IMG/VR virus record: IMGVR_UViG_3300035665_002032
Span: 1-34,129 of that record
DNA length: 34,129 bases
From: a virus
Strand: one strand, 5' to 3'
In this document: positions 1,305 through 24,355 of the stretch, one piece after another
How positions within the stretch are numbered: the stretch's first letter is position 1
How the letters are laid out: every line of letters starts with the position of its first letter
Program-made: the position numbers and the translations under genes
The notes under the pieces: generated by a model
The model's input: only the letters and a program-made list of their open reading frames with translations
Databases searched by the model: none
What the model was told of the DNA's origin: nothing

Positions 1305-4300
1305 TGCCGATAGATAAGCTAATACCGAGGTATCTTAACAAGGATGATGACTTCCTTATCGTCAAGGCTGTTGAGGCTGTTGATGCTTTGAACATACAGA
1401 CCAGTGATGATGAGGGGGGTAATGCTGGTGTCATGAAGAATGCTCTTGGTAATGTTTTAATTGCCACTGCTGCATCTGGTGATGCCTTGCCATCGGGGAC
1501 TAACACGGTTATAGGCACTGCCAAGTGTAAGCAGACTGGGGAGATATTTTACTTTGTTCACAACTCAAGCAATAATCATAGTGTTTACAGGTATTCAACG
1601 GCTACGAACACAACGAAGCTTGTTTATAGGGATTCTGTTTTAGGCTTTACGGCTACTGGATTTGTGAAGGGGGATTGTATGGTTAAGGAGAATGGCGATG
1701 TTCTGTTGTACTTCACTGATGGGGTTACAGATCCGAAGAAGATTAATGTTACGAGGGCATTGGCTAATACGACTGGCGTTAGTGGCTATCCGTATAAGGC
1801 TGCTGGTGCTAGTAGCTACACGGATGCTGAGAAGCTGTTGAGTATCACTACGATTAAGGCACCTCCGCTAACCCCTCCGATTGCGACTGTATCTTCTGAT
1901 ACTTCTATTACGAGCAACAACATAACAGATAAGTTACTTCAGTTTGCTTATCAATATGTTTATGAAGATGGGGAGTTATCTGCTATATCCCCTTATTCGG
2001 ATATTGCTACCAACTATATGAACTTTGTTGATGGGTATGTAACGGATGACATGAAGAATGTCTTTAACGCCATATCTGTTCAGTATAATAACAGCAAGGG
2101 TGATGTGAGTAAGGTGAGGATATTGTATAGGGAGGGGACTTTCAACAACTTCTCTGTGTTCAAGGAGGTGAGCAACAATAGGGCTGTTGCAACGGGTAGT
2201 GTCTTGTTCACTAATGCTACGATAGGGACAGTCATCTCTGATAATGAGATGAACAAGATGTATGATGCTGTTCCTCAAAAGTCAAGGAGTCAGGTTCTTT
2301 CAGGGAATAGACTTGCTTATGGGGGTTATACTGAGTTTTATGACAACACGAATGTAAGTGGCAATGTAGTTTTTGCTTATGAGAAGTCCTCACCTCGACT
2401 TACGAGTTTGTCTACGACAACCACAGGGACAACTGTCAGTGCATCGACTACTACGAACAATGTCAAGTTCACCCTTGATTTATCCAGCTTCCCTGAATCG
2501 TCTAGTTATGATACAACGATAAACTTGTCGTTGAACATTGGATCTGATTATCTTGGTATATCTAGTGGTTCGGCCTTTTCTGTTGGTAGGGTGTCTGGAG
2601 TTACGGCTGTTCAGCTTGGCGTCACTGAGCTTGCTATAAATAAAACATTCGTTGTTTCTGGTTATGCCGACAAGAATGTGTTGGCTTCGGCTGTGATATC
2701 TCAGCTTACTGGTGTGACATACACTGGGATAACCACCAATGCCAATTCAAACCTTTTCATTTCTCCGTTTAGGTATACATTTGCGGGTAATTTTGAGGCT
2801 ACGTTAGTAAATCCTACTATTAGCAGTGGTGTCATCACGCTTTCTATACAGTTGGGCAAGCTATATGTTCAGAGTGTTGACATTTGGTCTGGGTTAAACC
2901 CGATGATTGGGGAAAATCCTGTTGTTTGGAATGTTTCTAATGTTTGGGGTAATTACAACTATGAATTTGGCAAACTTAGGTTGTCTAACATATCGTCATC
3001 ATTTGGCATATCAGTTAATGCATACACTGCTTTTAAGTCTGGTCAAAGGCATAAGTTCGGTGTTGTTTATTACGATGGATACAATAGGAGTTCTGCTGTT
3101 AATGAACTTGGGGAGTTTTATAATCCAAACGAAGGCTCTAGAGGTGGTGCTAATTTAGGTCAGGCAAAAGCGATTGCAAGGATATCAAGCACTCCTCCAT
3201 CTTGGGCTAAGAAATGGCAGTTAGTTTATGCCCCGTATACAAGCTATGACTTTGCTTATAGGTATTCTGTTGCTGAGGCATTCCTTCCTGTTGAATTGAG
3301 TGGGTCTACTACAAACAGAAAGATATATCTATCAATGAGGCATCTTGAAGGTAAAAACACTTCTTATAAAGATGCTAAGGGGGCTATATTCAACTATTCT
3401 TATGCCAAGGGGGATAAGCTGAGGATAGTCAGCTATGTAAATCCTGCTGGCTCTGGCACTATTTCATATCCCAATGAGTATGTCTTTGATATACTTGGCT
3501 ATGACTTTATAAACACGACAGGCACTCTTGTTGTTTCCGGTATTACGAATTATCAGGAAAGGGGGACTGGGTGGTTTTTATCTGTTTCTGATGCTAACTA
3601 TAGTGACTTTAACACAGCTTCTATAGCAGCGTCTTCTGACTTTTGGGATAACGACACTATTGTAGAGATATATAGACCAATAAAGTCTTCATCCTCCCCA
3701 GTATATAGGGAGATAGGGGAGGTTTATGATATATATAGTGATGGAGGGTCTTTATATCACGATGGCAATAGAAATGCCACCTATATTCCGCCATCCACTA
3801 ATTTTAATGTTTCTTCAGGCACATTAATAGCTGAATCTAGCGGTCTTTTGGTTTATCCCGGCGACTCTATTACATTAACATCTGGGGTAACTAGCTATAA
3901 TAGAGTCATTCTAAATTCTAGTACAAATGCTTCTGGATATTCAGTAATAACTTTCGTTGAACCTGGCAGCATACCAGATGGAAAATACTCTTTTTCTTTT
4001 TCATCTTATCCATTAAGCACCGTTGTTCAGACTAACAATGGTGATTGCTATTATAGACCAAGGCAGGTAAAGTTAAATCCCATTTTAGTTTCACCAAACA
4101 CAGCTCCAAGTAATGTCTCTGGCATAAGATATGTTGATTACTTCGTTGAGGATTTAAGCGTTAGCGATTTCTTCACGTCAAACTTCATAAGTGTTGGTAG
4201 GCCAAATGCAGTCGCCCCAAATGCCTTTCAGATAGACAGGCGTTCATCTATAACCTATTCAGAGCCTTACGCCTTAGACTCATCAATACTAAAGCTATCG

Positions 4301-18405: not shown

Positions 18406-18815
18406 AGCGCATCCTTATTTTAGTACTTCTACTGTTACTTCCATCTTGTTCGGCTCAGTGGCATTTAAAAAGGGCTATCAAGAAATCCCCTGATATTATT
18501 AAGACTGAGTACATCACTATTACGGATACCGTTATAACTAAGGGGGTTGAGCATTATGACACCATTGTCACCAGAAGCGTTGACACTATTGAGGTGGCTA
18601 AGGAGAAACTACAGTTAAAGATTATAAGAACCTATGACACTATTTCAATTCAGGCTAAATGCCTACCTGACACAATCATTAGGACAATTGAAACCCCTGT
18701 TGAAACAATTGTGTTTAAGGAGAAGACCCCGGCTATCAGATATATCTCAAGTACGGTTTGGGGACTCGCAGCAATACTATTGATTGTTGCTGTTATAAAG
18801 ATTTGGGTAAGTTAA
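18402..18815 (+). CDS. Unimolecular spanin-like lysis lipoprotein
   Basis: A 137-aa protein. The first 16 residues (MKRILILVLLLLLPSC) are a lipoprotein signal with lipobox LPSC, so acylation is expected at Cys16. A Thr/Asp-rich periplasmic region follows (TITDTV, YDTIV, SVDTIEV). Residues about 115-136 form one C-terminal membrane helix (SSTVWGLAAILLIVAVIKIW). A lipid anchor in the outer membrane plus a C-terminal inner-membrane helix is the layout of unimolecular spanins, which fuse the two membranes in the last step of lysis of Gram-negative hosts. The ATG overlaps the polyvalent stop as ATGA. Its 3' end overlaps the convergent mutase gene by 39 bp. No holin or endolysin is visible nearby. 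Confidence 0.7.
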   Translation: MKRILILVLLLLLPSCSAQWHLKRAIKKSPDIIKTEYITITDTVITKGVEHYDTIVTRSVDTIEVAKEKLQLKIIRTYDTISIQAKCLPDTIIRTIETPVETIVFKEKTPAIRYISSTVWGLAAILLIVAVIKIWVS

Positions 18816-19895
18816 CGACTCTTTGCAGAATTTCAGCGCAGAATCTATAACTTGATGCATATCGTAGTATTTGTATTCCGCAAGTCTTCCGCCAAAATAG
18901 ACATTCGGTAATGAACGTGCTAAATCTTTGTATGCCTCATAAATGGCGTTATTGCGATTATCGTTCACTGGGTAGTATGGATCTGTTTGCTCCACAATGT
19001 AAGGCACTGGAAACTCCGTGCTAATCCAAGATCCTTCCGATTGTGATTCTTCAAAGTGCTTATGCTCAATAATGCGGGTATAAGGGACATCCTTATCGCA
19101 GTAGTTCATCACAGGGCATCCTTGAACATTTTCACTTGGATAATATCGGTGCTGATGAACTACCGTTTTGTATTCAAGATGCCCATGCTTATATCCAAAG
19201 AACTTATCAATCGGGCCTGTGTAAATTAGATTCTTATATTCTGGCAATGGAGATGTAAAGAAATCTGTTTCAAGCATTACGGGAATACCATCCAGCAGTT
19301 TTTCAAAAATCTGCGTATAACCACCAACGGGAATGCCTTGGAAGGTGTCGTTGAAATAGTTGGTATCGTAGGTAAAGCGAACAGGAAGGCGATTTACAAT
19401 GCTCGCTGGCAAAGTTTCCGCATCCCGCATCCATTGTTTTTCGGTATAACCTTTAATAAGCAGTTCATACACCTTGCGGCCTACCTTCTTGATTGCAGAT
19501 GTTTCAAGATTTTCGGCATCGCCAATCCCTTCGCAATCATTGGCTATGCAATCTATCGCCTCTTTGGGAGTTGTTGCATTGTAGACTTTCTCAAAAGTGT
19601 GCATGGAAAAAGGCAACGAATAGACCCGACCCTTTGCCGTAGCCATCACTTGCAACCTGAAAGGCTTAAACTCTGCAAACTGGTTAATCCAAGCCCAAAC
19701 GGTTGGGTTATTGGTGTGGAAGATGTGAGGGCCGTAGACATGAATGTTAATACCATCCCTCTGCTCCGTGTAGCAGTTGCCCCCGATGTGATTGCGCTTC
19801 TCTACAACTACGACTGATTTACCTTGGTCGTGCAGGTGTTTGGCACAAATAGCACCAAAAAACCCAGAACCTACAACCATATAGTCAAAAATCAT
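18777..19895 (-). CDS. glf: UDP-galactopyranose mutase
   Basis: A 372-aa protein, the usual length for bacterial UGM. This flavoenzyme converts UDP-galactopyranose to UDP-galactofuranose in the cytoplasm. The N-terminus carries the FAD-binding pattern VVGSGFFGA, then EKRNHIGGNCYTE and HVYGPHIFHT, both diagnostic of the family. The family Arg and Tyr residues of the C-terminal half (YPVND, YKYYDMHQ) are present, so it looks intact. It is the last gene of a minus-strand glycan cassette: its ATG overlaps the upstream DUF3431-type gene as ATGA, and glycosyltransferases precede it. Its role is presumably to supply Galf for a phage-directed surface or virion modification. Confidence 0.93.
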   Translation of the reverse strand: MIFDYMVVGSGFFGAICAKHLHDQGKSVVVVEKRNHIGGNCYTEQRDGINIHVYGPHIFHTNNPTVWAWINQFAEFKPFRLQVMATAKGRVYSLPFSMHTFEKVYNATTPKEAIDCIANDCEGIGDAENLETSAIKKVGRKVYELLIKGYTEKQWMRDAETLPASIVNRLPVRFTYDTNYFNDTFQGIPVGGYTQIFEKLLDGIPVMLETDFFTSPLPEYKNLIYTGPIDKFFGYKHGHLEYKTVVHQHRYYPSENVQGCPVMNYCDKDVPYTRIIEHKHFEESQSEGSWISTEFPVPYIVEQTDPYYPVNDNRNNAIYEAYKDLARSLPNVYFGGRLAEYKYYDMHQVIDSALKFCKESLTYPNLYNSNNQ

Positions 19896-20464
19896 GGTAA
19901 CCCTTCAAAGATTGTTGGCCAAAGACGTTCAAATGCGTGTGCATACCCATCAATATCTGTGTCATGAAATCTTATAGCTTTTTCGTAAAACTCAATAGGA
20001 TGCCTATGAATAGCCTCCTTGGTCACGGCAAAGATTGCTCCAGCACCAAACCAAATCGGGTGGTTAAAATCCTCCCCAAATAAAGAGTGAGCCACTTCAG
20101 GGAGCAGATTTGACCAGCAATGGTAAGGCCAGCAGCGGCATTGCAGATTATCAACTTGCAACACCCAAGAACATAGATTTTGAAATGGCTTATCTAGTCC
20201 CTCTTGGATGATTAAATGCGTTTTATCGATAAAATCAGAGCAGTGTGGGAATGGATCGCCTTGTGTGAATATTGTCACATTTGACAGTGAGTTATATCTA
20301 CTTATTATGTGGTGAAGATATGTATGGGACTCTCTGCCTATATTTTGTAATTTCACACAATCAACGTCAATCTCATCCCCTTTATTGTAAATTGTTTTTT
20401 TTGAGTCAAAAAATTTCAGCCAATCTATATTTTCGTTATATCTGGCAACTACAATTTCATTCAT
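19892..20464 (-). CDS. DUF3431-type protein, glycosyltransferase-associated
   Basis: A 190-aa protein. The start VVARYNENIDWL, the central NIGRESHTYLHHII and the TIFTQGDPFPH segment match the DUF3431 family as I remember it. That family is generally found in polysaccharide gene clusters and has no settled biochemical role. WFGAGAIFAVTKEAIHRHP near residue 145 resembles the acceptor-side loop of GT-A type transferases. It has no membrane segment. It lies three bases from the upstream glycosyltransferase-like gene and overlaps the mutase downstream, so it is part of the same cassette. A divergent glycosyltransferase is the likeliest activity. Confidence 0.7.
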   Translation of the reverse strand: MNEIVVARYNENIDWLKFFDSKKTIYNKGDEIDVDCVKLQNIGRESHTYLHHIISRYNSLSNVTIFTQGDPFPHCSDFIDKTHLIIQEGLDKPFQNLCSWVLQVDNLQCRCWPYHCWSNLLPEVAHSLFGEDFNHPIWFGAGAIFAVTKEAIHRHPIEFYEKAIRFHDTDIDGYAHAFERLWPTIFEGLP

Positions 20465-20467
20465 AGA

Positions 20468-21157
20468 TTAAAAAGTTACATTTTGAAACATATTGAGGGC
20501 AGGCATCCCCTTGAATAAATCAACAACAGACAGCTCATAACTGCCAAGCCATCCCTCTGCGGAATACTTATCCTCTGTAAACGGATTCCTCAAATTCTTG
20601 ATGTGGCTTGACTTAGCCCACCAAAAGTTCCCTGCAAAGAATGGATATCCATCTGGGTGATGCTCTTTGTACATCTGAAAGTACTCAGGGAATTCCTCTT
20701 TACACAGATAATGACACCCAACAGCATCTACACCCGGCTTCTCCAACTCCCTTATCGCTTGCGTCCAACGAACTACATTAAAGAACAGCATAGACCTAGC
20801 CCACAGTTGATTGACAATACCTCCCCTTGAAGTCCCCTTCGTATGAGCATAAAACAAGTAGCCATCATCTGTTTTGGCAAACTCCCACAGCTTTTCTAAT
20901 GTCACCCCTTCATATCCACTATCACGCTGTGCGGCAATTTGAATCTTGGGGTTCTGGTAATTATTCTGAATGTGATCAATCACAGCCTTCCGTTGTTCCG
21001 GTGATCCAATAATACCCACCTGAACAGACTCTAAATTGTCCATAAGGGCATATGCATTCAGCGTCACGAAGTGCTGATGCACAGGCAAAAGCCAGTTGTC
21101 AGCCCCTGCATAGATGTGGAAGAAATGATTAAGCTTCTTTTGGCTTGAGGACTCCAT
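20468..21157 (-). CDS. Glycosyltransferase-like protein
   Basis: A 229-aa protein. The N-terminus FFHIYAGADNW is followed by GYLFYAHTKGTS at about 100, WARSMLFFNVVRW at about 120 and FFAGNFWWAKSSHI at about 178. From memory this set occurs in small glycosyltransferases of capsule and LPS clusters that carry the YxHTKG motif. No signal peptide or membrane helix is seen. The ATG at 21157 lies 29 nt inside the end of the upstream gene. It is kept because no later in-frame ATG precedes the conserved FFHIYAG segment. The sugar donor and acceptor cannot be told from sequence alone. Adjacent glf suggests Galf as one candidate donor. Confidence 0.7.
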   Translation of the reverse strand: MESSSQKKLNHFFHIYAGADNWLLPVHQHFVTLNAYALMDNLESVQVGIIGSPEQRKAVIDHIQNNYQNPKIQIAAQRDSGYEGVTLEKLWEFAKTDDGYLFYAHTKGTSRGGIVNQLWARSMLFFNVVRWTQAIRELEKPGVDAVGCHYLCKEEFPEYFQMYKEHHPDGYPFFAGNFWWAKSSHIKNLRNPFTEDKYSAEGWLGSYELSVVDLFKGMPALNMFQNVTF

Positions 21158-22268
21158 CTTGTATTAGTTTAGGTATTCTATCTTGCATCTGATTCTCTTC
21201 GTAAATTCTTTTATATAAGTTCCCCTTCTTACAGAATATCTCCTGAAAGCAGAAGTTCTTCAAGACATAATCTTGTAGATTCTTAGCCATCCCCTCTCTC
21301 ATCTGTGGGTCGAGTATCAGTTGTTTGGTGTACTTATACCAACCCATAGGGTCATTATGCTTCACGATAAACCCATTCTCCCCATGCTTGATATGCTCTG
21401 CATAGTAGTTCATGTTGGATGCGATAATCGTCTTGCCCATCCAACCTGCTTCTACGACCTTCAACTCACTCCTTGACTTGTTGAATTCAGTCATATTCAC
21501 AGGGGCGTAGGTGACATCAACCTCGTTATATCCGTACATATAGTCATACACGGATCGAGCAGGTATTCTATTGTAATTAGGGTTTCTGCCCTTGTTGCTA
21601 AATACAGACTGATAATAATTGTACGCATCATTGTCGTTGTAACCTGCAAGAGTCACTGTATACTTCCCATTTAAAGATGTGTCATTGCACAGCTTCCTCA
21701 TCCCCTCCTCCATAAGAGCAATATCCTCAATGTGTTGCGCCCCACCAAACCATCCAAACCTTGTATATGGGGCAGGCTTATGAACAGGGACATACTGATG
21801 AAACTTATTCGGATATGGGGTGTTCTTGATGACTGTTATGTTAGGGTTTATCTCCCTGGCTCTGCTGGCAAGGTATTCCGTTGAGCAGGTTACATAGTCA
21901 GCAAGCCTTATATTCTCTTTGATAATAGCTGTTAGGTTGTTGTCTTTGTAATGCTTGTAGCTTATGTGAGCCTTGTTAAGCACCCAATAGTCATCAAGAT
22001 CGAGGACAATCTGCGCCCTACACTGCTTTAAGTTGTTCTTCGTTTCAGCAACAGCCTCAACAGACCTTGTGTCAAACACCCTGCTCACCACAAATATATC
22101 TGTGTTGTAAAAGCCCTCCTCGGCTATCTTCTCAAACCCTGTGTAGTTGACAAACTGAAAGTCTGTGCTGTTCTCTTCAAGGTATGAATTTGGCATATTT
22201 AAGCGATACAGTGCGCTTCCGGACTCCTCTTGGGTGTATATAGTGGAAACAACAATTGGCCTTCTCAT
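21129..22268 (-). CDS. GT4-like glycosyltransferase
   Basis: A 379-aa GT-B fold candidate. The N-terminal half contains DIFVVSRVF and QIVLDLDDYWVLN. The nucleotide-sugar half starts at about residue 190 with RFGWFGGAQH and ends with the GT4 signature region SELKVVEAGWMGKTIIASN, then EHIKHGENGFIV at about 315. Glutamates in the KVVEAG and HGENGF contexts correspond to the usual EX7E catalytic pattern. It leads the glycan cassette. The previous gene (nuclease-like) ends 9 nt before, so it may be read from the same transcript. Likely action: transfer of a sugar onto a host surface glycan or virion component. Confidence 0.85.
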   Translation of the reverse strand: MRRPIVVSTIYTQEESGSALYRLNMPNSYLEENSTDFQFVNYTGFEKIAEEGFYNTDIFVVSRVFDTRSVEAVAETKNNLKQCRAQIVLDLDDYWVLNKAHISYKHYKDNNLTAIIKENIRLADYVTCSTEYLASRAREINPNITVIKNTPYPNKFHQYVPVHKPAPYTRFGWFGGAQHIEDIALMEEGMRKLCNDTSLNGKYTVTLAGYNDNDAYNYYQSVFSNKGRNPNYNRIPARSVYDYMYGYNEVDVTYAPVNMTEFNKSRSELKVVEAGWMGKTIIASNMNYYAEHIKHGENGFIVKHNDPMGWYKYTKQLILDPQMREGMAKNLQDYVLKNFCFQEIFCKKGNLYKRIYEENQMQDRIPKLIQDGVLKPKEA

Positions 22269-22811: not shown

Positions 22812-23031
22812 TTGAACTAAATTGCATTTCTCTCCACTCTTTAACGGCATCACGCATAAACGTAAGCTCTCTCTTCACCTCCATTATATAATCTGTGCAA
22901 CGTTTCCGGGTGTATATCTCATCGACTATCGGATCCCCATTTTTATCGTGAAGATCTTCGTACAACCTTGCTGTTGAGTCGTATATATTATTGGTGGCTG
23001 ATGAGAAGTATTTAGACAGCTCCCTTTTCAT
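22756..23031 (-). CDS. Hypothetical helical phage protein
   Basis: A 91-aa, charged, mostly helical protein with no recognised motif, signal or membrane segment. Its start overlaps the end of the upstream nuclease gene by 20 nt and its end overlaps the next gene. This tight packing supports a real coding sequence. The C-terminal tail is basic (KKPTSLRGISGNQVR). Confidence 0.6.
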   Translation of the reverse strand: MKRELSKYFSSATNNIYDSTARLYEDLHDKNGDPIVDEIYTRKRCTDYIMEVKRELTFMRDAVKEWREMQFSSNEYKKPTSLRGISGNQVR

Positions 23032-23509
23032 GGGTTATGTGTTTTTGTAGTATATCCATAACTTGATCAACCTGCTTTTGGTTTTTTGGCATAAAGACCA
23101 TATAGTCAGACATATTATTGATGTAAAGATAGTGGATAAACAACTTCCATCGTATGTTAAATGAATGATTGCTTAATATAAACCCCTTTGTTTCAATGAT
23201 AAACTTATGCTTTACAGATACGAAATCTGGTGTATATGAAATTGGGAGTTGAAGGCTGCCTGTCCTATCCTTCATCAGCGTACTCTTGGCTGTTGTCTTA
23301 TAGTACAATCCTTTGTACTTAAAGCTATCTAAAAGTTGATATGAAACACCTTCGTACTGGTAGTCAATGTTCAGTTCATCTAATTTTCTAGCGCAATACG
23401 ACTCTAATTTTGACTTGTACCTCCCATCGCCTACATAGCTCCCTATAGATGACTTCCCCTTTCTTCTCCCCCCTTTGGGGGTTGAGGATCTGATTATTTT
23501 CTTTGCCAT
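23012..23509 (-). CDS. PD-(D/E)XK nuclease, T7 endonuclease I-like
   Basis: 165 aa from the ATG at 23509. The frame is open further upstream (to 23572) but that part is the 3' half of a tRNA-like gene, so I place the start at MAKKIIRSS. A basic N-terminal tail (KGGRRKGKS) leads into KSKLESYCARKLDELNIDYQYEG and then YTPDFVSVKHKFIIETKG. That is the Glu...Asp-X(n)-Glu-X-Lys arrangement of T7 endonuclease I and related Holliday-junction or resolvase-like nucleases. Probable role: resolving branched replication intermediates or degrading host DNA. The length fits this family (about 150 aa). Confidence 0.7.
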   Translation of the reverse strand: MAKKIIRSSTPKGGRRKGKSSIGSYVGDGRYKSKLESYCARKLDELNIDYQYEGVSYQLLDSFKYKGLYYKTTAKSTLMKDRTGSLQLPISYTPDFVSVKHKFIIETKGFILSNHSFNIRWKLFIHYLYINNMSDYMVFMPKNQKQVDQVMDILQKHITHEKGAV

Positions 23510-23514
23510 TTTAG

Positions 23515-23609
23515 TACCGAGGTGGGAGTCGAACCCACATTTACAACTTCTGTTTACGGTCGGGGTGCGCACTCCCTAATTGTCGTTTTACCACTTAAAC
23601 TACTTCGGT
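23515..23609 (-). tRNA. tRNA-like gene with an oversized anticodon loop
   Basis: About 95 nt. The D arm is perfect (GTTT/AAAC around a GG-containing loop) and so is the T arm (GTGGG-TTCGACT-CCCAC). The acceptor stem is ACCGAA against TCGGT, with one base missing or mismatched on the 3' side. ACAAT pairs with GTTGT in the anticodon-stem position, but the loop between them is about 31 nt instead of 7 and contains a self-pairing GGGAGTGCGCACCCC. I cannot assign an anticodon. It could be a degenerate tRNA, a tRNA with a small insertion, or a tRNA mimic. CCA is not encoded. Confidence 0.55.
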
Positions 23610-23651
23610 TTTTTCTAATATCATTTTGTTGGCGTCAACGAAATGGTTTTG

Positions 23652-23722
23652 TGGCCATGGCAGGATTCGAACCTGCAATAAACCCCGCCATTGGGGTGTG
23701 TGTGCCTTTCCACCACATAGCC
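23652..23722 (-). tRNA. tRNA-like gene, anticodon not assignable
   Basis: 71 nt. The acceptor stem GGCTATG/CATGGCC pairs along all 7 bp (one G-T) and the T arm GCAGG-TTCGAAT-CCTGC is perfect. The D region pairs poorly, with a CACACACAC run. ACCCC can pair with GGGGT, but this leaves a 6-nt loop AATGGC. The 7-nt alternative gives TGG (Pro) at positions 34-36, with A instead of U at 33 and one stem mismatch. The identity is therefore left open. Confidence 0.6.
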
Positions 23723-23725
23723 TTG

Positions 23726-23797
23726 TAGTCAGGACAGGATTCGAACCTGTATTTGCAGGCCCTTTCGAGCCCGTGGTTACCATTACGCCACCTGACT
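23726..23797 (-). tRNA. tRNA-like gene with non-standard anticodon arm
   Basis: 72 nt. The acceptor stem AGTCAGG/CCTGACT is a perfect 7 bp with discriminator A, and the T arm ACAGG-TTCGAAT-CCTGT is perfect. The D loop carries the usual AATGGTA. The best anticodon stem is CGGGC/GCCTG, closing an 8-nt loop TCGAAAGG. No 7-nt loop with U33 fits. The decoded codon is not assigned. A Bacteroidota -7 promoter element lies 7 nt upstream of the mature 5' end. Confidence 0.6.
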
Positions 23798-23804
23798 ATT
23801 TACA

Positions 23805-23812
23805 CAAATATA
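23805..23812 (-). promoter_or_regulatory. Bacteroidota -7 promoter element for the tRNA cluster
   Basis: Read on the minus strand this is TATATTTG, a perfect TAnnTTTG. It ends 7 nt before the first base of the leading tRNA-like gene, so transcription would start at or just before the mature 5' end. No good -33 TTTG is seen at 19-21 nt spacing. Confidence 0.5.
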
Positions 23813-23814
23813 CA

Positions 23815-24006
23815 CTACTTCTCCCCAATTTCCCCCTTCAGCTTCTCGACGTAGACCGCTGCATCCATCAACTCCTCCTGCAGGTGTTGCAGCCATTGCA
23901 TCAGCGTCAGGTCATCGCGCTCCATCGTTGTGCCGTACTTGCGCTTGCCCTGTTCCGCTCTTGTCCTAAATTGGTCAATAACTGACTCGACTATCTTATC
24001 GCTCAT
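23815..24006 (-). CDS. Small MazG/DUF-type phage protein
   Basis: A 63-aa helical protein with R-x-E-x-GK-x-KYG near residues 16-25 and WLQHLQEELMDAAVYVEKL at 43-60. The EExxDAxxY helix recalls the metal-binding helix of small MazG-like and related phage nucleotide pyrophosphohydrolases, but the protein is too short to be a complete classical enzyme and could work as an oligomer. It overlaps the RyR-domain gene upstream by 11 nt. Base composition is GC-richer than that of the replication genes further right. Confidence 0.6.
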   Translation of the reverse strand: MSDKIVESVIDQFRTRAEQGKRKYGTTMERDDLTLMQWLQHLQEELMDAAVYVEKLKGEIGEK

Positions 24007-24355
24007 GATTGTCTTTTAGCGCGTTCACAATTGCGCAAAATAAAGCGTCTTTTTTTTGCTGAAATTCAGGTAATTGCTCGAATGGGACGATACAAGGGTG
24101 CGTTTTTTTAACGGTATCCTTTACCTCCCCATACACCCACCCATCTGAAATCTTTTCCTGCATCCATGCGTTATGCTGTGCATCTTCTTTTGCGTCAGGG
24201 TTGTTTAATTTAAAGGCAACACCAGAAATGGCGCTGTCTCGCTGCCATTGTTCGGCATCATCCCAATGACTTTGACTAAAGTCCCCGTTTGCTTGGCACC
24301 ATACTCTATTAGCCTCATGGCATGCCTTGGCGATATACTCTATTTTTTTATCCAT
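23996..24355 (-). CDS. RyR-domain protein
   Basis: A 119-aa protein covering essentially one RyR domain: KACHEANRVWCQANGD, WDDAEQWQRDSAISGV, DGWVYGEVKD and KTHPCIVPFEQLP are the conserved blocks. RyR repeats are best known from ryanodine receptors, and stand-alone copies are common in Bacteroidota genomes and phages, where they are thought to bind nucleotide-like ligands. No membrane segment is present. It lies in a compact minus-strand row with a small MazG/DUF protein and a DNA methyltransferase, a setting that suggests a link with nucleotide or DNA modification. Confidence 0.8.
   Translation of the reverse strand: MDKKIEYIAKACHEANRVWCQANGDFSQSHWDDAEQWQRDSAISGVAFKLNNPDAKEDAQHNAWMQEKISDGWVYGEVKDTVKKTHPCIVPFEQLPEFQQKKDALFCAIVNALKDNHER

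Follow-up and report, generated by a model that had tools for sequence, protein, structure and literature searches.

Phage tRNA-like genes with interchangeable cargo RNAs in place of the anticodon arm

The minus strand of the IMG/VR virus record IMGVR_UViG_3300035665_002032 (positions 1 to 34,129; this whole stretch of 34,129 nucleotides (nt) is called the window here) holds three clustered tRNA-like genes, in the order t1 (23726-23797), t2 (23652-23722) and t3 (23515-23609), none of which has an ordinary anticodon arm. These genes and their relatives in other viral contigs share a tRNA chassis in which interchangeable structured inserts, termed cargo, occupy the middle; chassis and cargo move as units, and the arrangement occurs in viruses, with no example in the cellular genomes searched. 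Most family members lack a canonical anticodon arm, and sequence comparison suggests that t1-t3 and their relatives are probably non-decoding RNAs, each composed of a tRNA scaffold and a cargo with a role in trans. The phages that carry them are uncultured, and the class is apparently undescribed so far: no account of a natural, cargo-diverse tRNA scaffold was found in the open-access full-text literature, outside which a report is possible.

All three window genes match the Rfam tRNA model from end to end, with 41.7 bits for t1, 42.6 for t2 and 39.4 for t3 (gathering score 29). Like ordinary tRNAs, they possess an acceptor stem, a D arm and a T arm with the T-loop signature; the T arm is intact in each, and the acceptor stem is complete in the upstream pair, t1 and t2, and has one bulged base, A6, in t3. 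The departure from the norm lies in the anticodon region, where the Rfam alignment, ARAGORN and folding find neither a 7-nt loop with U33 nor an assignable anticodon in t1, t2 or t3. ARAGORN calls only t1 and t2, both as 'tRNA-???', with a 4-base 'anticodon' (gaaa) in the former and a 2-base one (tg) in the latter, and does not call t3 (95 nt). In t1, which is built on the family A scaffold (AGTCAGG acceptor, D arm, T arm, A73), the anticodon region is an 8-nt loop, UCGAAAGG, without U33 if just five pairs form, and the minimum-energy fold places a 7-bp stem with a GAAA tetraloop at the same position (cargo region CGGGCTC-GAAA-GGGCCTG, 23756-23773). The t2 gene, with acceptor GGCTATG, has a 6-nt loop, AAUGGC, without U33 between ACCCC and GGGGU (ACCCC-AATGGC-GGGGT in the DNA, 23682-23697), and t3, with acceptor ACCGAAG, has a 31-nt loop, TAGGGAGTGCGCACCCCGACCGTAAACAGAA (23548-23578), flanked by ACAAU and GUUGU (ACAAT and GTTGT in the DNA). 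The original prediction, made from the letters alone, thus described the cluster well in its acceptor and T arms and in its loops of about 31, 6 and 8 nt, the last of which can alternatively be read as the GAAA hairpin; standard cloverleaves for all three genes, or homologues in random decay, were looked for with the Rfam tRNA model, with ARAGORN and among relatives, and were not found.

Searching the viral contigs of IMG/VR with the promoter and 5' end of t1 returned at least 119 stretches, and a full gene was present in 103 of 110 newly fetched loci. Two further scans used patterns from the 3' half and left the acceptor 5' strand and the promoter free; the resulting family counts are to be read as lower bounds. 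At least 408 unique genes, mostly 80-135 nt long, carry the scaffold AGTCAGG-TGGCGGAATTGGTAGACGC ... ACAGGTTCGAATCCTGT-CCTGACTA, whose shared ends (AGTCAGG plus D arm, and ACAGGTTCGAATCCTGTCCTGACTA) enclose a variable middle. These middles fall into at least 264 clusters without detectable mutual similarity, from which the Chao1 estimator projects about 586 cargos. The acceptor stem, D arm and T arm are retained and other structured RNA stands in place of the anticodon arm, with the D loop sometimes extended as well; many members have A73 and a D arm of the Leu type. A structural scan of 3.8 Mb of loci, requiring 7/7 acceptor pairs, 5/5 T-stem pairs and the D-loop signature, gave 465 non-canonical tRNA-like hits against 0 in reversed sequences, which excludes a chance origin; dozens of these hits use other acceptors, that of t2 included. 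ARAGORN made no call for 263 of 331 genes from the less biased scans and reported 'tRNA-???' for another 18, and no long same-strand open reading frame (ORF) encloses a scaffold gene (0/494). 

Copies accumulate within single phages, nearly always without repeating their cargo. There are 112 multi-copy loci, each with two to eight copies, and in 106 of them all cargos are different. Scaffold RNAs also coexist with conventional tRNA genes: in record G003 a cluster of 15 ordinary tRNAs lies about 26 kb from at least five scaffold RNAs, and other large phages have big ordinary tRNA arrays alongside scaffold RNAs. In a 246-kb contig (L297, from position 2326), a gene that by eye resembles an asparaginyl/aspartyl-tRNA synthetase lies close to scaffold RNAs.

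Evidence that the cargos are maintained as RNA comes from compensatory change. Cargo cluster 1 has a helix on the 5' side of the T arm that repeatedly changes sequence, with nine two-sided changes, and yet is paired in 100% of cells (0/500 shuffles). A second family, with acceptors TCACTCT and CCATTCT, replaces the anticodon stem with an 8-bp helix in which six of eight pairs show two-sided change; 99.3% of cells are paired, ten pairs have two-sided changes, and 0/500 shuffles reach either the fraction of cells paired or the covariation score. The cargo of this family also has an internal loop whose sequence is conserved and a hairpin that covaries, and two-sided compensatory changes occur in its cargo, acceptor and T stem alike.

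Exchange of cargo and scaffold is seen at several levels. One cargo occurs on two acceptors, AGTCAGG in a 52-kb contig and the compensated AGTGCAG/CTGCACT in GenBank phage MW202828. Among 224 comparable pairs of genes with a common cargo, neither flank is similar in 154, and the mean cargo identity in these is 84.5%; where both flanks are related, the cargos are on average 95.5% identical, with flanks mostly at 73-96% among the pairs listed. The converse is found beside terL, where two loci (L138 and L149) with upstream flanks 91.5% and downstream flanks 98.6% identical have unrelated cargos. A single cargo type is also found with and without an extra D-loop hairpin (L306 and L305). Several loci (L020, L285, L306 and L429) combine D-loop insertions, hairpins such as GCACA...TGTGC, with cargo in the anticodon arm, so that the D loop is a second insertion site. 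The cargo of L020, L397 and L429 contains its own T-arm-like hairpin, the stem of which is inverted from CCCG/CGGG to CGGG/CCCG between variants, and its helices appear to interleave as a pseudoknot.

The window genes are themselves well conserved. A DNA pattern taken from t3 located four other contigs (L007-L010) in which t3 is identical at 95/95 nt, cargo loop included, although the neighbouring coding DNA is only 87-96% identical, and the genes are therefore not decaying. Over 26 copies of t3 the 31-nt loop is invariant and it is the T arm, variable region and discriminator that vary. The fetched loci hold 17 copies of t1 in three variants, and in one of them (L014) a single stem change, C40 to U40, keeps the pairing; t2 has 28 copies and three variants among relatives, with an invariant anticodon stem-loop. 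Across relatives the anticodon arms of t1 and t2 are thus nearly invariant. Each gene is an independent module: t1 is found where t2 and t3 are missing, t3 where the other two are, and similar partial sets exist. The identity of t3 and the covariation in relatives led us to reject a tRNA pseudogene decaying at random across all arms, and conservation, covariation and hundreds of relatives strongly support the earlier proposal of selective change in the anticodon arm of genes that are probably expressed. Beside the t1 copy of L014, at 2940-3130, lie a very short RNA bearing a T arm and a 129-nt tRNA-like gene with acceptor TGGCTAT and a large, hairpin-rich insert.

Searches beyond metagenomic viral contigs returned little. 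A pattern of promoter plus scaffold gave 21 matches in 84,980 bacterial and archaeal species genomes (257 Gb), none of them a tRNA-like gene. In 395 Bacteroidota genomes, the 3' half pattern gave one partial tRNA-like match without the family acceptor; prophages with variant scaffolds could escape both searches. This match (L450, near position 1500) has a tRNA-like end, ACAGGTTCGATTCCTGTCGGGGCTAC, with an odd 5' part and no ARAGORN call, and is perhaps an integration scar. The window cluster found only short matches in cultured-phage DNA, mostly to the T arms of ordinary tRNAs. No shared core emerged from a search for a sequence motif common to 56 cargos, of which 10 contain GGTRARA (2.5 expected). 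Rfam families besides tRNA were absent from the best 150 of 168 matches in 105 kb of cargo-rich loci, and the other Rfam scans in this analysis likewise reported tRNA only.

How might such RNAs work? We propose that retention of the acceptor stem and of the D and T arms allows host RNase P, RNase Z and the CCA-adding enzyme to trim and protect the RNA; from established tRNA biology, such processing, protection from nucleases and possibly charging would be expected. The cargo, replacing the anticodon arm and sometimes extending the D loop, would then do the work in trans. Between one and eight or more such RNAs are present per phage, their cargos nearly always distinct, and phages exchange units of cargo and scaffold. 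Judging by the pattern of diversity, the likeliest targets would be host proteins, above all antiphage defence factors, which the cargos may bind or decoy; such targets would explain the restriction to viruses, the high diversity, the swapping at one locus and the stockpiling of different cargos. This anti-defence step, taken alone, is offered tentatively. A decoy for anticodon nucleases, one of the functions first suggested for t1-t3, may be just one version of the explanation; the suggestion of a tRNA mimic came close to the mark, except that the three genes were not recognised as part of a far larger modular family. In its broadest and equally speculative form, the proposal describes a natural phage platform for hundreds, possibly thousands, of unrelated RNA inhibitors or decoys that are swapped by recombination and stockpiled, an RNA counterpart of the arsenals of anti-defence proteins.

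Several observations weigh against a non-decoding scaffold with a trans-acting cargo. Covariation is demonstrated in relatives and not for t1-t3, whose anticodon arms hardly vary. The mean folding z over 56 cargos is weakly negative (-0.48), so that many cargos have little nested structure or rely on pseudoknots. The constancy of the scaffold arises partly by construction, the queries having specified parts of it, and so is not evidence in itself; the evidence is the unrelated middles. Finally, ARAGORN gives an ordinary call for 50 of the 331 less biased members (about 15%), and a few members are normal tRNAs, for example Leu(UAA)-like and Ile(UAU)-like genes, so the family grades into ordinary tRNAs.

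An unlikely alternative is that the genes act as tRNA punctuation, processing signals ahead of other genes at which RNase P and RNase Z cuts define mRNA ends and the middle is unimportant filler. Their placement is consistent with such a role, since an ORF starts within 60 nt downstream in 30% of copies as against 11% at random, and t3 lies 4-6 nt ahead of the start codon of terL or of an endonuclease gene. Filler should drift, yet the cargos are conserved and covarying, and no less conserved than related flanks. Nor does punctuation sit well with copies that nearly always differ within one phage, several of which are in tandem or adjoin ordinary tRNAs.

Similarly improbable are antisense or regulatory small RNAs, in which conserved cargo loops would pair with host or phage mRNAs and the tRNA parts merely stabilise the molecule. 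Some cargos do present conserved single-stranded loops on covarying stems, such as GUAAUAGYCAAUAA and AGUUCUGCAG, but 3.8 Mb of phage loci yielded no complementary target, in a search that left short targets and host genomes outside its range. Although 42 of 264 cargos match unmasked sequence, the long matches, which span nearly the full length, lead to further copies whose scaffolds differ slightly, and the one match verified in detail (MW202828) is a variant copy of the same gene.

It is far less probable that the genes have no function as RNA and are either tRNA genes in decay or selfish DNA cassettes whose ends resemble tRNA. Units are indeed spread between unrelated contexts, and a collapsed scaffold, AGTCAGGTGGTGGAATTGGTAGACTCAGTCCTGACTACA, without cargo and T arm, in L229 near 4176 is apparently a deletion remnant. 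What argues instead for selection on the RNA is that cargo, acceptor and T stem all show compensatory change on both sides, that the cargo of t3 is invariant and that a promoter box is located directly at some gene starts.

Unusual decoding, in which 8-nt, 6-nt or expanded loops would read four-base or two-base codons or promote frameshifting, had also been raised for t1-t3 and is more doubtful still. An 8-nt loop does decode in yeast mitochondrial tRNA-Thr (PMC7609411), and t1 could present GAAA. Against this, a 7-nt loop with U33 is possible in 6 of 56 cargos (3.6 by chance), there are at least 264 unrelated cargos, with no signal of U33 or an anticodon stem above chance, and cargos of 50-115 nt are unlikely to fit a decoding site; translation table 11 reads the phage ORFs normally, and ordinary tRNA sets are present in these phages. 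Virtually no weight can be given to tRNA introns, in which splicing would remove the cargo and restore a normal anticodon loop. A 5-bp stem does flank the 31-nt loop of t3, alone among the window genes, but across the family 26 of 264 clusters have such a stem, close to the 22.3 expected from shuffled sequence (with U33, 4 against 6.9), which refutes the reading for the family as a whole; bulge-helix-bulge splicing is not known from bacterial hosts.

Comparison with known RNAs sets the scaffold genes apart. Transfer-messenger RNA (tmRNA, ssrA) likewise joins a tRNA domain to a non-tRNA domain at the position of the anticodon arm. It has no D stem, bears a tag-coding region and is a single RNA universal among bacteria, whereas the phage genes are viral, have a D stem and mutually unrelated cargos, and ARAGORN, which searches for tmRNA too, predicted none in the window. 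The phage tRNAs that act against retrons and PARIS are reportedly ordinary tRNAs replacing or sparing cellular tRNA, in contrast to scaffold RNAs, which lack an anticodon. They resemble scaffold RNAs in that tRNA genes serve as RNA counter-defence (PMC11555353, PMC11455837). Phage tRNAs with anticodon-loop mutations evade anticodon nucleases (PMC10264068), and are similar in being phage-encoded, with change concentrated in the anticodon arm and a proposed anti-defence role; there the change is described as mutation of the loop, whereas scaffold RNAs have lost the arm altogether or have 20-115 nt of different structure in its place. Non-canonical tRNAs such as allo-tRNAs, in a review that does not mention phages (PMC7609411), share unusual arm lengths and in some cases a metagenomic origin, but keep a usable anticodon. 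The closest likeness is to the laboratory tRNA scaffold, in which acceptor stem, T arm and D arm are retained and the anticodon stem-loop is turned into an insertion region for arbitrary RNA (PMC3753655). That scaffold is man-made for overproduction; the phage version is natural and viral, has hundreds of conserved cargos and sometimes uses the D loop as a second insertion site. A further parallel was sought in the T4 stable RNAs of unknown function, with nothing usable found.

It is as if phages had invented the 'tRNA scaffold' by which laboratories stabilise foreign RNA. Should host or defence proteins be what the cargos act on, natural RNA aptamers and inhibitors would be at hand as a ready-made library, mounted on a laboratory-proven chassis. 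The family also offers a direct test of why phages carry tRNA genes, as part of the 'tRNA' content of these phages would not be for decoding.

The surroundings of the window genes bear on their expression and spread. A Bacteroidota-type -7 box, TATATTTG (minus strand, 23805-23812), lies 7 nt upstream of t1 and is conserved ahead of t1 in relatives; in L014 it stands 4 nt from the t1 copy, though the genes further upstream there are unrelated. TAnnTTTG is no commoner in the window than chance predicts (19 found, 30 expected), and the promoter proposed earlier for the first gene, upheld in its position, therefore rests on conservation in relatives and not on window statistics. At the other end, homology breaks exactly at the 3' end of t3: the matches of all four relatives stop at 23515, beyond which the relatives have terL and the window has an endonuclease/Holliday-junction-resolvase-like gene (minus strand, 23012-23509; PHROG hits), and tRNA-like ends may serve as recombination joints. 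A protein search with this endonuclease found no relatives. Between t2 and t3 is a near-perfect 24-bp palindrome, CATTTCGTTGACG(C/T)CAACAAAATG (23622-23645), whose core, GTTGACGTCAAC, is perfect in relatives and there overlaps the start codon of the gene that follows (in L016, terL).

In relatives, the terminase that neighbours t1-t3 shares 51% identity with terminases of Flavobacterium phages, and a BT4734-type primase/helicase is encoded in the window; Bacteroidota are therefore the likely hosts of the window's lineage. Elsewhere in the window, positions 23996-24355 encode a short protein with an RyR domain (Pfam, 46.7 bits), and the minus strand at 18777-22268 has sugar genes for a glycosyltransferase (phrog_7162) and, by eye, a UDP-galactopyranose-mutase-like protein.
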